A DNA stretch of 64,000 bases from the NCBI RefSeq assembly GCF_004339245.1, contig NZ_SMGG01000004.1, positions 1 to 64,000 of the forward strand, written 5' to 3'. Positions 56,426 to 62,626 of the stretch are shown piece after piece (positions within the stretch are counted from its first letter, which is position 1; every line of letters starts with the position of its first letter). The notes below the pieces were generated by a model, which was not told where the DNA came from, made no database searches, and saw only the letters and a program-made list of their open reading frames with translations. The translations under genes and the position numbers were made by a program. The DNA comes from Seleniivibrio woodruffii (GTDB lineage: Bacteria > Chrysiogenota > Deferribacteres > Deferribacterales > Geovibrionaceae).

Positions 56426-56462
56426 GCTTCCGTTTTTAAAAATTTAGGTGCATCATATTTTA

Positions 56463-57377
56463 ATGAGGCAATTATCAAAGGCTGACAAGGCTGTATTTAT
56501 TATAAATGATAGCGGAGAGCTTATCCATGCAGACGAACAGGCCCGCACTCTGATAAGTGAGACAGATGTTGCTGAGCGTCTTTCAGCTGTTGCCGAGGGC
56601 TTTTCATCCGTCCTGCTTTCGAGCGGGTGCGCAGAAGTTCCATATTCGGTAACTTGCAGGCATATTCAGGAAAACGGCATCAGGGTCATTATCTTTGAAG
56701 ACGTGTGCGGACGTTCGGAGCTCATTCGTCTGGCCTCAATAGGCAGCATAATGCCTTCGATAGCCCACGAAATGCGCAACCCCCTCACAGGAATCAGTGT
56801 TCTTCTTGACGATATCCACGACAGACTCACAGGAAAAGAGGACGAAAGACGCCTTATCCGTATGTCCATTGCCGAAATAGAGAGGCTGGAGCGGATGCTT
56901 AACGATGCGCTTGTATATTCCGGCGGCGGAAGCTCCGTGATGTTCGATGAAAATATCGGCGATATCCTTTCGGAAGTGCTCATGCTTAACCACAAGCTCT
57001 GCACTGTCAACAGAATTGAGGTTCACGGAGATATCTCCCCTGACATCCCGGAAATTCTTGCCGATGGCGGAAAGCTGAGGCAGGCATTTCATAACCTGAT
57101 AATAAATGCAGTTGAGGCGATGCCGGGTGGCGGAAATCTGACACTCAGTGCCTATGTGTCTGACGGTAAAATAAATATCCATATAAAAGACACCGGATAC
57201 GGAATAGCGGAAGAGAAGCTGCACATGATATTCGAGCCTTTTTTCACCGATAAAAGTGAAGGAAGCGGAATAGGGCTGTCGGTTGTGCGTGAGATAATCA
57301 GGATGCACGGCGGCGAAATCAGCGTCAGAAGCGAGATTGGAAAGGGCACAGACTTTTGTATCACCTTAAATATTTAG
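56463..57377 (+). CDS. Cytosolic PAS-like histidine kinase
   Basis: 304 aa with no membrane helix. A short N-terminal PAS-like part (KADKAVFIINDSGELIHADE), then HisKA SIAHEMRNPLTGISVLLDDI (phospho-His) and HATPase with NLIINAVEAM, DTGYGIAEEK and GSGIGLSVV. This NtrB-like layout pairs with the sigma-54 regulator 88 bases downstream. ATG at 56463 is preferred over GTG 56448; AGGTG lies upstream. Confidence 0.85.
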   Translation: MRQLSKADKAVFIINDSGELIHADEQARTLISETDVAERLSAVAEGFSSVLLSSGCAEVPYSVTCRHIQENGIRVIIFEDVCGRSELIRLASIGSIMPSIAHEMRNPLTGISVLLDDIHDRLTGKEDERRLIRMSIAEIERLERMLNDALVYSGGGSSVMFDENIGDILSEVLMLNHKLCTVNRIEVHGDISPDIPEILADGGKLRQAFHNLIINAVEAMPGGGNLTLSAYVSDGKINIHIKDTGYGIAEEKLHMIFEPFFTDKSEGSGIGLSVVREIIRMHGGEISVRSEIGKGTDFCITLNI

Positions 57378-57381
57378 CTTA

Positions 57382-57406
57382 TGGCGGAAAATCGCCACTT
57401 TATTAT
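57382..57406 (+). terminator. Weak terminator-like hairpin
   Basis: TGGCG/CGCCA (57382-57386, 57393-57397) with a 6-base loop, followed by CTTTATTATT. Could reduce read-through from kinase to regulator gene. Confidence 0.3.
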
Positions 57407-57465: not shown

Positions 57466-58830
57466 ATGGAAAAAATACTTGTTGTTGATGATGAAATATT
57501 CATCCGGGAAAACCTCGAACGCACTCTCACCCTCAAAGGCTACGACGTAGCCGTCGCTCAGAACCGTCACGAATCAATCCACATGCTTACCGAAGGGGAT
57601 ATCGACCTTGTACTGCTGGATCTTAATCTGGGCAGGGACAGCGGTATCGATATTCTGCGGGAGATGAAAGAGGTCGATCCTGAGATTCTCGTCATAATAA
57701 TAACAGGTTACGGAACAGTGGAAAGTGCCGTGGAAGCCCTTAAGATGGGGGCATACGACTACATAAAGAAGCCTTTCAAGGCGGATGCCCTGCACCTGAT
57801 AGTCAGGCTCGCCCTTGAAACCAGAAGCCTTAAGCGTGAGCTTAAATCCTTTAAAAGGGACGGCTCTGTATTGCCGGAGGTGGTTGGGGTCAGCCCCGCC
57901 ATGACCGACGTTTTCAGAAAGATCAGAGAAGTGGCCAAGCACGAGACCGCCACTGTGCTTATCACAGGGGAGAGCGGAACCGGAAAAGAGGTTGTCTCCA
58001 GAGCCATCCACAACCTGTCCCCCAGAAAAGACAAGCCCTTTGTGGACATAAACTGCGGCTCACTGCCTTATAACCTTCTCGAATCAGAGCTTTTTGGCCA
58101 TGAGAAAGGAGCGTTCACCGATGCCAAAACCAGAAAGATAGGTCTTCTGGAAGAGGCGGCGGGCGGAACGGTTTTTCTGGACGAGATAGGCGAGATGGAT
58201 ATGAACCTTCAGGTCAAGTTTCTGAGGGTGCTTGAAGAACGTAAGATACGCAGGCTGGGAAGTACCAGAAACATCGATATTGATGTGCGGATCATTGCCG
58301 CAACAAACAAGGACCTTATGGAGGCCATCAACAAGAAGGAATTCCGTGAGGATCTGTTTTACAGGCTGAACGTTTTCCCAATGGCTCTGCCCCCTTTGAG
58401 GGAGCGCACGGAGGATATCGCCCCTCTGCTTGATCACTTTATAAAAAGGTACAGCGGAGAGTTTAAAAAGGACATCAGAGAGGTCTCGAAAGAGGCTCTG
58501 GAGCTTTTCAAGGCATATTCATGGCCGGGCAACATACGGGAGATGAAGAACATTGTCGAACGTATCTGTATTATGTATGAAAAAGAGATAATAACGCCTG
58601 ATATGCTTCCCAGAGAGATAGCGGGTGAGAAACCGAGGCCGGGCGGGCATATAAACATGCATATTCCGGCTGACGGTGTCGATTTTGAGACTATGATAGA
58701 GAACATCGAAAAACAGCTTCTTTCGGAAGCCCTTGTCATGACAGGCGCAAACGTTCTGCGCACTTCAAAACTTCTCAATATTCCCAGAGGGACACTCAGG
58801 TATAAGCTGGAAAAATACGGTCTGGTGTAG
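57466..58830 (+). CDS. NtrC-family sigma-54 dependent response regulator
   Basis: 454 aa. Receiver with phospho-acceptor D52 (LLDLNLG), AAA+ domain with Walker A GESGTGKE (168-175), Walker B GTVFLDEI (234-241), and Fis-type HTH at the C-terminus ([20 protein letters not shown]). The sigma-54 contact loop reads GAFTDA (215-220) rather than the usual GAFTGA. Paired with the kinase just upstream. No sigma-54 promoter (-24/-12 GG-GC) was found in the window, so targets are elsewhere. Confidence 0.9.
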
Positions 58831-58845
58831 GATTTGGCAAAAAAT

Positions 58846-58875
58846 GAGACCCTTCGGCTGACGTCTCAGGGTGAC
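58846..58875. repeat. Dispersed intergenic repeat
   Basis: GAGACCCTTCGGCTGACG followed by TCTCAGGGTGAC, the same family as 27485 and 44402. A related CTCTGCGAACGTAGTGAAG unit follows at 58900. Confidence 0.65.
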
Positions 58876-59658
58876 GGTTGGGTGTGTGATGTTATTTCGT
58901 CTCTGCGAACGTAGTGAAGCAGCCTTCCACACTCATACAGCCCGCCGCTTTGGTATATACCTTCCAGACACTGCTGGATGTCTTCACGAACCCCGCAGGG
59001 GCAAAGTATATAAGCGACATCAGGACATAAAAAAGCCCTGCCGGTATTGGAGACCTCAGCAGGGCGAAAAGCGGTTGATACCGCCTATGCATCTATTGAT
59101 TTGTGGCTATTTGCTTACTTAAAACTTTTTGTCCTGTCAGCGGGCATAACGCCCGCCGAATACAAGACACTCCCCCTCGGCTTTCGCCGAACCCATGTTT
59201 AAATCTGATACCTATTGCGTACGTTTCGTAGTAATATAGAGCAATGCCCGTGCCAAAATCTGACAAATCATTTGTAAAGTATGTAAGTGTCTGCGAATAA
59301 ATGCTTTATAAAAAAATCAAACGATAATTTCTGTTGGTTTGATATTTTTATATGTGGCTAAAATCCGCCAATGGGCTGAATGGGGTGTGAAAAGTGGCCA
59401 ATTTTCACCATCAAGCATTCCTGAAACAGAATATATCATTGTTGCTATTAATTTTTCTGTGTAATTCAGGGTGTATTTAATGAAGCGTCCGTTAATTACT
59501 CTTCCGTTGATTTATCATGTTCGGGTATTTGTTCTTAAATCTATTGTGAAGAAACCGGAAATAGTATAAAATTAAACCATAAACCAATTCCTATTCAGAC
59601 ACGGCTTTTAACATTTAACCCCGCTGTTAAAGCGGACAGACAGCCCGGAGTAAGCAGA
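58876..59658. other. Gene-free hairpin-rich island
   Basis: The largest gap in the window. 58900-59190 packs hairpins: GCCCTGC/GCAGGGC (59035-59041/59059-59065), GCGGT/ACCGC (59070-59083), GCGGGC/GCCCGC (59140-59156) and CGGC/GCCG (59178-59189). Short open frames run both ways (66 codons leftward from 59092, about 60 codons rightward to a stop near 59214), but neither has a good ribosome site. From 59200 to 59658 the DNA is AT-rich, with an ATCAAAC/GTTTGAT hairpin at 59316-59343 and a weak TTGTGA/TATAAA pair at 59544-59570 before the kinase. I see no recognised gene. Confidence 0.6.
59029..59065 (-). terminator. Leftward intrinsic terminator inside the island
   Basis: Read on the minus strand, GCCCTGC / GCAGGGC with a 17-base loop is followed at once by TTTTTT (A-run 59029-59034 on the plus strand). 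It would end a leftward transcript arising inside 59066-59658, where no gene is annotated, hinting at a small RNA. Confidence 0.5.
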
Positions 59659-61614
59659 ATGATTATTCCTGAAGTCAAAAGTGTTCGGACAAAACTGTTT
59701 ATCTTTGTCATGCTCACCATCCTTCTGATGTGTGCCGTCTTTGCCGTCACTCTGTATACGATGACCCTGTCGAACATAAAAGAGCGTGCCGCCGCTGCTT
59801 TCCGTACATCTTTCGCTCTGCTCAACGAAAATATCAAGAGTCTTCAGGTTGATCTGCTTAAATATACCGATATTCTCTCTCAGTCGGTCTATCTGCGTGA
59901 TATGGAGTTTGGCACTGAGGCAGGACTCAGAGAGGGAGCCGGACGGATGGCAGAGCTTGCCAATCTGGGCAATATCGGCGCACTGGCTGTTTTTGATGAG
60001 GTCGGAAACCCTATTGTGTTTGCATTCCGGAAGAACGGCGACTATTTCAGCGGATATATGCTGAACGGAAGGCTTTCGGTTATTAAAGACGGTGCGGCTG
60101 TTGAATCCGGAGATGAGACACGGTTCATCCGGACGTTTCTCGGCAAGTCGAAAAATCTCAGGCCGGGGTATAATTTCAGCGATCTTTCCGGTGTTCTGGC
60201 TGCCCAATACACGGGCAAGACAGTTAAAGACGGAAAAAACTTTTCAATAACAGCTTCCGATTTTCTGGACAGCACTTTCGTCAGAAAAATATCCTCTTCC
60301 ACAGGAATGGATTTCACCTATTATATAAACGGAAAAACAGCTTTCAGCGGAAACTTTAAACCGGAAGCCCCCTTGACAACGCCCTTTCCGTCAGGTGCCG
60401 AGACTGCGGAGAAAATCGTTAAATATGAAGGGATGAACGTCTATTTTCAGAAATGGGTGATAGACGGCGACACCTCGGTGGATTTCGGTTTCGCCGCACA
60501 AGACTACGCACTCAGGGACATCCGCAGGAATATTCTGGTGGGCTTCATAATGATCTGGTGCTTCGTCGTTGTTCTGGTGGTTCCTGTGAGCCTTTTCCTG
60601 CTTAATCTGGCTGTAACAAAGCCTCTGAGAGAGCTTCAGGCGGCTGTGAGAAAAGCCGAGTCTCTCGATTATGACCAGTTTCTCCCCATTAAGCGCAGCG
60701 ACGAGATAGGTGATCTTGTTTCCGCCTATAACGAACTTATAAAGAGGATAAAAGAGCGTGAGGCCGAACTGCAGGATATGAACGGAAGGCTCAAGGGGAT
60801 GGTTGAGCTGGAGACAGGACTCAGGCAGAAGAACGAACAGCTCCTTTTCGAACAGCAGAAGTTTGTGGATATGGGACGTATGGTTAACGCCATCGCCCAC
60901 CAGTGGCGTCAGCCGCTGAATATCATCGGCCTTGCGGTTCAGAGCTTTGTTATAAACTACAGGGAGAAGCGGATAGACATGGCCGAGGCCGACGACTTTG
61001 AAGAGAAGGTCATGGCAATGCTTCAGCATATGTCCGCCACCATAGACGATTTCCGCAATTTCTTCCGATCCGACAAGACAGAGAAGCAGTTTTCTGTAAT
61101 AACGGGTATGGTTGAGGTTATAAGGCTCATAAACGCCCAGCTGAAATACAACGGAGTAACCCTTAACTATACATGCAGAAGCGGTTCCGAAATTTTTGTT
61201 TTTGAAGAGGGCATGCAGGAGAACCCCGGAAAGATGGCTGAAACCGCCATAGTCAGCGGTTTTCCGGGTGAGTTTAAACAGGCGGTAATGAATATTGTCC
61301 AGAACTCAAGGGATGCCGTTTCAAAAAAACTGAGCGGCGGGGCTGTCAGAGAGGGTATAATAGACATTGTTCTTGAGGTTGGGGAGTCTGACGTGACTTT
61401 CACAATATCCGATAACGGCGGCGGAATAGATCCGGATGTCATCGACCGGATTTTCGATCCTTATTTCACAACAAAACAGAACGAAAGCGGAACCGGCATC
61501 GGTCTGTATATGACAAAAACAATTATAGAAGGGCATATGAAGGGCAGAATTTCAGCTTCAAACACAAATAACGGAGCGGTATTCACTGTTGTTCTGCCGA
61601 AGTTCACTTCCTGA
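59659..61614 (+). CDS. Membrane histidine kinase with extracytoplasmic sensor
   Basis: 651 aa. Helix about 10-32, a large periplasmic sensor (about 33-283, dCache-like with GNIGALAVFDEVGNPIVFAFR), second helix (about 295-318), HAMP, coiled coil, HisKA IAHQWRQPLNIIG (phospho-His in HQWRQPL form) and HATPase (NIVQNSRDAV, DNGGGID, GTGIGLYM). The PhnD-like gene starts 14 bases downstream and is probably a sensory partner. No response regulator is adjacent. Confidence 0.88.
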   Translation: MIIPEVKSVRTKLFIFVMLTILLMCAVFAVTLYTMTLSNIKERAAAAFRTSFALLNENIKSLQVDLLKYTDILSQSVYLRDMEFGTEAGLREGAGRMAELANLGNIGALAVFDEVGNPIVFAFRKNGDYFSGYMLNGRLSVIKDGAAVESGDETRFIRTFLGKSKNLRPGYNFSDLSGVLAAQYTGKTVKDGKNFSITASDFLDSTFVRKISSSTGMDFTYYINGKTAFSGNFKPEAPLTTPFPSGAETAEKIVKYEGMNVYFQKWVIDGDTSVDFGFAAQDYALRDIRRNILVGFIMIWCFVVVLVVPVSLFLLNLAVTKPLRELQAAVRKAESLDYDQFLPIKRSDEIGDLVSAYNELIKRIKEREAELQDMNGRLKGMVELETGLRQKNEQLLFEQQKFVDMGRMVNAIAHQWRQPLNIIGLAVQSFVINYREKRIDMAEADDFEEKVMAMLQHMSATIDDFRNFFRSDKTEKQFSVITGMVEVIRLINAQLKYNGVTLNYTCRSGSEIFVFEEGMQENPGKMAETAIVSGFPGEFKQAVMNIVQNSRDAVSKKLSGGAVREGIIDIVLEVGESDVTFTISDNGGGIDPDVIDRIFDPYFTTKQNESGTGIGLYMTKTIIEGHMKGRISASNTNNGAVFTVVLPKFTS

Positions 61615-61627
61615 ACGAGGGAATTTT

Positions 61628-62626
61628 ATGCGCAAGCTGATTTTTATTTTTCTTATTCTATCACTGGCCATGACTGCGCTTGCAGACAGGGAAAGGGTTT
61701 TTACCGTCGGGGTCAGGGCTTTTAACGGAGTGCAGGAATCCTACAGATCGTGGTCGCCGACACTTCTTTATCTGGAACAGAACCAGAACAAATATTCCTT
61801 TTATCTTATGCCTGTTTTCGGGTTTGAGCAGATGCGCAAACTGCTGGAGACCGGACAGATAGATTTTGTGATAACCCAGCCCGCAGAGGCCGTCATTCTG
61901 CATGAAAAATACGGTTCAAGGATCATTCTGACACTTCTTCGGGAATACAGCGGCAGAACCGTGTCATATTTTTCGTCAGCCATGTTCACCAGAGCGGAGA
62001 GGGACGATATTAAAGATTTCGACGACATGAAAGGGAAAACTCTGGCCGCTATAGATCCTGAAGGGTTCGGAGCCTACTGGATGATCCTGAAAGAACTCAG
62101 GGATGCCGGACTGAAAGAGGGAAAGGATTTTAATATGGTTTTCACAGGCACTCAGGACAAGGTTGTTGAGAGTGTTTTGGAGGGAAGGGCAGATGCCGGA
62201 ACTGTACGTTCGGGTATTTTGGAAAAGATGGCGAAAAACGGCCATATAGATTTAAAGAATATAAAAGTCATAAACAGCGTAACAGACGGCCTCCCGCTTC
62301 TGCACAGCACAAAGCTTTATCCTGAATGGGCATTTTCCGCCGGAAAAGATGTCAGCGAAGAGACTGTGAACGAGGTTCAGAACATACTGACAAACATCCC
62401 GCAGGATGCTCAGGTGCTTAAAGAAAGCGGATATGCCGGATGGATACTCCCTGTGAGCTACATCAGCGTTTATGATATTATGAAAGACCTCAAAAAAGGC
62501 CTTTATGAGGAACAGCCTATGCTCGGCTTCTCCGACTGGCCTTTCTATATGAAAATTCTTGTGCCCATACTTATAATCTGGGTGATCATACTGGGTTATG
62601 TCGGTTTTTCAATATATAGAAAATGA
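61628..62626 (+). CDS. PhnD-like periplasmic binding protein with C-terminal anchor
   Basis: 332 aa. Signal peptide, then a type 2 periplasmic binding fold of the phosphate/phosphonate-binding (PhnD) type (GVRAFNGVQESYRSWSP, then GQIDFVITQPAEAVIL, GKTLAAIDPEGFGAYWM), and a C-terminal membrane helix (about 307-327). PhnD-like domains also form the sensor of TtrS-type kinases. Here the domain is split off and membrane-anchored beside a kinase, so it is likely a ligand-binding partner. GAGGG precedes the ATG at 61628. Confidence 0.82.
   Translation: MRKLIFIFLILSLAMTALADRERVFTVGVRAFNGVQESYRSWSPTLLYLEQNQNKYSFYLMPVFGFEQMRKLLETGQIDFVITQPAEAVILHEKYGSRIILTLLREYSGRTVSYFSSAMFTRAERDDIKDFDDMKGKTLAAIDPEGFGAYWMILKELRDAGLKEGKDFNMVFTGTQDKVVESVLEGRADAGTVRSGILEKMAKNGHIDLKNIKVINSVTDGLPLLHSTKLYPEWAFSAGKDVSEETVNEVQNILTNIPQDAQVLKESGYAGWILPVSYISVYDIMKDLKKGLYEEQPMLGFSDWPFYMKILVPILIIWVIILGYVGFSIYRK

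Follow-up and report, generated by a model that had tools for sequence, protein, structure and literature searches.

In Vibrio, the gene qrr1 adjoins luxO, and LuxO is a sigma-54 activator. The small RNA NrsZ of Pseudomonas aeruginosa is described in excerpted text of PMC8395346 as an RNA of about 226 nt that lies in the intergenic region after ntrC and is produced through RpoN and NtrB/C, and it is also mentioned in an excerpt of PMC9731577. According to portions of PMC4063720 and PMC8395346, the 407-nt CrcZ RNA of Pseudomonas adjoins cbrB, depends on RpoN and on activation by CbrB, an NtrC-type regulator, and uses A-rich motifs to titrate Hfq, and a portion of PMC4211561 presents the Qrr RNAs of Vibrio as activated by the response regulator LuxO. 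Here we describe a locus in a 64,000-nucleotide stretch of the Seleniivibrio woodruffii genome (the window) at which the minus strand of 59029-59228 is very probably a sigma-54-dependent small RNA gene driven by the neighbouring two-component system, as judged from comparative sequence analysis. The features of the locus are as follows.

56448-57377, plus strand: histidine kinase with HisKA and HATPase_c domains, 57-59% identical in three close relatives
57382-57397, no strand: dyad TGGC-N8-GCCA in the gap between the kinase and regulator genes, a possible autoregulation site
57466-58830, plus strand: NtrC-family response regulator with Response_reg, Sigma54_activat and HTH_8 domains
58841-59007 (58841-58879, 58895-58961 and 58973-59007), no strand: dispersed intergenic repeat pieces, separate from the RNA gene
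59029-59228, minus strand: predicted small RNA gene of about 200 nt, 89% of columns invariant in four species, covariance model match
59240-59255, minus strand: predicted sigma-54 promoter TGGCACGGGCATTGCT, full score on the consensus used
59355-59370, no strand: perfect dyad TGGC-N8-GCCA lying 142 nt ahead of the predicted start, a distance shared by all four species
59395-59410, no strand: second dyad, with one mismatch here and perfect in the other three species

The gene-free interval that holds the RNA gene is flanked by the regulator gene on one side and by a second histidine kinase gene (59659-61614, plus strand, 651 aa) on the other. When the intergenic sequence was searched against the window genome and 38 related genomes, 39 in all, 59023-59258 matched at 90-92% identity in three of the four same-genus genomes (G001, G003 and G004), and the 192 bases to its left had no match in these three. 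The order kinase, regulator, hairpin unit, kinase is common to all three. We place the conserved unit at 59029-59228, with control sites reaching to 59410; the predicted start was set 12 nt past the promoter GC and the end at the final T of the terminator run. A sigma-70-like site on the plus strand at 59544-59572 (TTGTGA, 17 nt, TAAAAT), mostly retained across the four-species alignment, probably serves the 651-aa kinase gene in the direction opposite to the RNA. Directly after that kinase gene, 61589-62626 encodes a PhnD-like binding protein that resembles the sensor part of the tetrathionate kinase TtrS (143.6 bits against NF040750, where the cut-off is 750), and kinase and binding protein may form one split sensor.

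The distribution of conserved columns across the four species provides the main support for the small RNA. Invariant columns make up 89% of the transcript, 88% of the promoter and 88% and 75% of the two dyads, while only 25% are invariant between the dyads, 21% from the dyads to the promoter, 27% from the promoter to the start, 24% in the downstream flank and 43% in the upstream part toward the kinase gene. In the regulator gene, identity at fourfold-degenerate sites is 37-39% for the window species against its three relatives and 37-55% across all pairs of the four species. As the flanks and the fourfold sites are deeply diverged, the transcript is under strong constraint, and the coincidence of the conserved blocks with promoter, dyads and transcript supports the reading of this unit as a sigma-54-dependent small RNA gene. 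The segment 59029-59228 is not neutral spacer, an outcome that the original prediction had allowed for and that conservation of the unit in four other species contradicts.

The promoter TGGCACnnGCATTGCT is retained in all four close species, and a similar promoter occurs in the fourth relative, G002. The motif is weak on its own because the strict sigma-54 pattern has eight matches in the window genome against three for a reversed-pattern control, so that conservation carries the case; two of the other strict sites lie before genes that look flagellar when their translations are judged by eye. The two dyads are probable activator sites, and the second sits at -182/-183 in all four species (182 nt before the predicted start here). 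A relaxed dyad pattern finds eight places in the window genome, which fall into seven loci (one locus includes both dyads of the small RNA), and only at the small RNA promoter does a strong sigma-54 site lie within 500 bp of a dyad. The dyad at 57382-57397 has no strong sigma-54 site within 500 bp, and another dyad, at 62229-62244, lies inside a coding gene.

The regulator is 93-94% identical in the three close relatives and 77% identical in G002, and we presume it to be the activator of the small RNA and the kinase encoded at 56448-57377 to be its partner. The difference between 93-94% for the regulator and 57-59% for its kinase in the three relatives is an unusual contrast within one two-component system. 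The window genome also encodes RpoN, and Hfq (PF17209) is found in 12 of 13 genomes, that of the window included. In addition to the normal Hfq, the window genome encodes a protein of 174 aa that combines two Hfq-like domains in a single frame (L095 535-1059, minus strand; G000:C3:268434-268958). Such paired matches occur in 11 of the 13 genomes searched, the second stretch in G012 being below the cut-off, and we found no literature report of a tandem Hfq.

The original prediction had drawn attention to four hairpins and a T-tailed terminator on the minus strand. All four are present, as three hairpins and a terminator stem of the minus-strand RNA, and the terminator is real, with a stem at 59035-59065 followed by six T residues at 59029-59034.

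59176-59191, minus strand: hairpin 1, stem identical in four species, loop variable, absent from G002
59131-59168, minus strand: hairpin 2, outer and inner stem, the inner stem retained in five species, loop variable
59071-59084, minus strand: hairpin 3, with one U-A to C-G compensatory change in G002
59029-59065, minus strand: Rho-independent terminator, 9-bp stem and T6, identical in four species

A simple terminator scan did not list the minus-strand terminator at 59029-59065, since its loop exceeds the 3-8 nt that the scan permits. In each of the five species, all 200 dinucleotide shuffles gave a less stable predicted fold than the native transcript sequence (z from -3.28 to -4.9). In the five-species alignment 4 of 35 pairs are changed on both sides and 95.2% of cells pair, and each of these values is reached by 2 of 500 shuffles. 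The small-RNA reading is weakened by three aspects of the same alignment: all both-sided changes originate from G002, further pair types do not rise above shuffles, of which 480 of 500 reach or exceed their number, and the covariation score of 0.126 for the structure is close to the 0.100 obtained when it is slid by +3 columns.

G002 offers a more distant view of the unit. Downstream of its regulator orthologue, and in the same orientation, come two dyads (one mismatched), a predicted sigma-54 promoter TGGCACACCCATTGCT, a GCGGGC/GCCCGC hairpin and then TGACAGG, a hairpin-bearing block AGATGCATAGGCGG, and a terminator of another sequence that retains a stem plus T run. The RNA is thus codirectional with the regulator in G002 and convergent with it in the other four species. 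Support for the small RNA from this homologue with its retained stems is joined by the fold stability in all five species and by the presence of RpoN and Hfq.

Of 50 genomes of the phylum, a covariance model built from the five genus sequences matches 5, each belonging to the window's genus and each with one significant copy. The scores of these five members are true by construction because they built the model, and the informative result is the 45 misses, obtained with search filters that were stricter and lost some weak matches. A second match in the window genome (G000:C4:473659, E 0.26) was dropped as below significance. A pattern search of named genomes recovered Seleniivibrio sp., Seleniivibrio woodruffii and Deferribacteraceae UBA6799 and UBA6793; three of these four records share sequence with the G001, G003 and G004 contigs and the fourth contains the G002 sequence. 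To date the predicted RNA looks confined to Seleniivibrio and its nearest relatives. The first reading of the segment could place it in no known family, and a search with Rfam 15 agrees: no window match reached a gathering score, and the best permissive matches (E 1.7-4.3) fall far under the cut-offs.

The stretch first singled out, 58876-59190, merges two unrelated things. Its hairpin unit is the conserved element described above, and its left part, to 59007, consists of dispersed repeats, which we set aside as being no component of the RNA gene. A search for other copies in the own genome accordingly divides: the left-flank repeats have 25 matches, the query itself included, and the hairpin unit has no significant extra copy. 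The repeat sequence is not conserved at the locus in other species. Several of its copies lie in a tandem array with a 154-bp unit in 7.2 copies (L007 1388-2488 and L096; G000:C3, about 1040600-1041700), which is built of two repeat motifs that are also scattered intergenically, including in the left part of the interval; for these repeat-like strings we found no literature match.

Taken together, these data suggest a mechanism in which the kinase encoded before the regulator would sense a signal and phosphorylate the regulator, which would then bind the two dyads at -142 and -182 and drive sigma-54 RNA polymerase to produce a structured RNA of about 200 nt ending at 59029. The RNA would act in trans, probably with Hfq, on mRNAs or a protein. 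Base-pairing against the leaders of the 651-aa kinase, the regulator and a DASS-type transporter gave no consistent signal; the shuffle fraction fell no lower than 0.045, a value reached when a single short segment was paired with DASS in one species. In the window genome the strongest duplex of a linker (-28.2 kcal/mol) falls within the final part of the chemoreceptor gene that directly precedes the kinase gene; it was rejected as a target for lack of conservation across the four species, since its shuffle fraction of 0 here compares with 0.155, 0.01 (for a different site) and 0.77 in the remaining species.

The alternative that survives best accepts the RNA as real and has it act as a decoy that titrates a protein, CrcZ-like for Hfq or CsrB-like for CsrA, and not by base-pairing. 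Hfq is present, by eye the hairpins are separated by an A-rich linker and a conserved GGGGGAG stretch, and no pairing partner emerged among the few mRNAs tested; inspection reveals, however, no array of repeated binding motifs, and we consider a decoy unlikely, though deserving of real weight. That the conserved unit is instead a regulatory DNA element plus the terminator of the regulator transcript is a quite improbable reading. In its favour, the regulator gene has the unit at its 3' end and the opposite strand can form the hairpins too, with weaker energy in five of five species, but only on the minus strand is the stem trailed by the T run, constraint spans 200 nt with the unpaired linkers included, and the G002 unit is reversed relative to the regulator while still running from promoter to terminator.

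Open frames on both strands had been offered as a sign of past coding, and with the GGGGGAG stretch as a potential ribosome site they would suit a gene that encodes a small protein or a formerly coding one in decay. The frames, of 83 and 66 aa, are unremarkable because 10.5% of 2000 Markov simulations of 58831-59262 give stop-free runs at least as long on both strands, and no reading frame is conserved, as the four close species differ by frame-breaking indels (1, 3, 4, 7 and 8 nt). A coding origin therefore has very little to recommend it, and the missing reading frame, like the restriction of dyads near a strong sigma-54 site to this promoter, favours the small RNA. Least credible of all is the suggested mobile-element end or attachment-like site, for which the dispersed repeats of the left flank would speak, but which does not fit a hairpin unit that has one significant copy per genome, adjoins the same orthologous regulator in five of five genus genomes and has no match in phage or plasmid collections.

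The position of the small RNA gains meaning from the sister genera. An orthologous regulator (64-68%) is present in six of seven family genomes outside the genus, the best match in G007 being 41%. A sigma-54-like site lies downstream of the regulator in all six (loci L031-L036), of a strong TGGCAC type in three (8.2-8.5 of 8.5) and of a TGGTAT type in three (7.5). Within 500 bp after the regulator, five of the six carry two or three dyads, none with more than one mismatch, which exceeds 98.8-100% of simulations; G005 has one mismatched dyad-like site, within chance (0.268). The next gene in all six encodes a DASS-type transporter, an identity tested on one gene (PF00939 and PF03600) to which the other five are 74-93% identical. 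This within-chance site of G005, and the lack of a target among the few mRNAs tested, take something from the support for the main reading, although the small RNA itself is unaffected by G005 because its case rests on genus data.

The sister-genus module thus shares with the window an orthologous regulator and a sigma-54-like site directly downstream, and differs in that the promoter leads into a DASS transporter gene and not an RNA; with this arrangement in the sister genera, the RNA appears to occupy the output position of the system. No DASS transporter gene lies within the 1.5-kb flanks of the five genus loci. The transporter gene is at another locus in four of the five genus genomes and was not found in G003, and in the window genome none of the eight strict sigma-54 sites is near it and no sigma-54 site is seen by eye in its upstream sequence. 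The G002 RNA is codirectional with the regulator, like the sister-genus transporter. The simplest reading is that the RNA succeeded the transporter in the role of regulator output; alternatively, the transporter may have replaced the RNA. The two-component system may concern organic-acid or carbon status. Only tentatively, and at less than even confidence, do we propose that the genus swapped the output of this system from protein to RNA and that, among the sigma-54 outputs of the regulator, the RNA is the principal and perhaps the sole one. If true, one bacterial family would display the passage from direct control of transcription to riboregulation.

In summary, the original prediction holds in part: of the options it raised, a leftward small RNA ending near 59029 is favoured, at the level of sequence, by conservation, a predicted sigma-54 promoter, dyads and a terminator. 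The locus adds a candidate dedicated sigma-54 riboregulator in Deferribacterota, where the literature we found on Deferribacter or Seleniivibrio small RNAs reports no sigma-54 riboregulator, and it allows a comparison between sister genera in which the promoter linked to one regulator precedes different genes, for a transporter in six genomes and for an RNA in five. The covariance model defines the RNA sufficiently for search and for testing in a cultured organism.

In its functional kind the locus reads as a sigma-54-dependent small RNA beside its activator, with a predicted promoter before an RNA that has its own putative terminator, an adjacent NtrC-type activator gene, and probable upstream sites in the form of dyads in four of four species and in G002; for a Hfq-dependent base-pairing small RNA, the genome encodes Hfq. 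Relative to the Qrr RNAs, which occur in several copies with a common core, the window RNA has one significant copy per genome. CrcZ differs in its repeated A-rich motifs, of which inspection found none in the window RNA, and in its length, 407 against about 200 nt. With NrsZ it has no Rfam family in common, and regulator and phylum are different; what the two share, here as predicted from sequence, is an RNA beside an NtrC-type regulator gene and sigma-54 acting with a two-component system. The RNA thus appears to resemble CrcZ/CbrAB, NrsZ/NtrBC and Qrr/LuxO in anatomy and not as a member of their sequence families.
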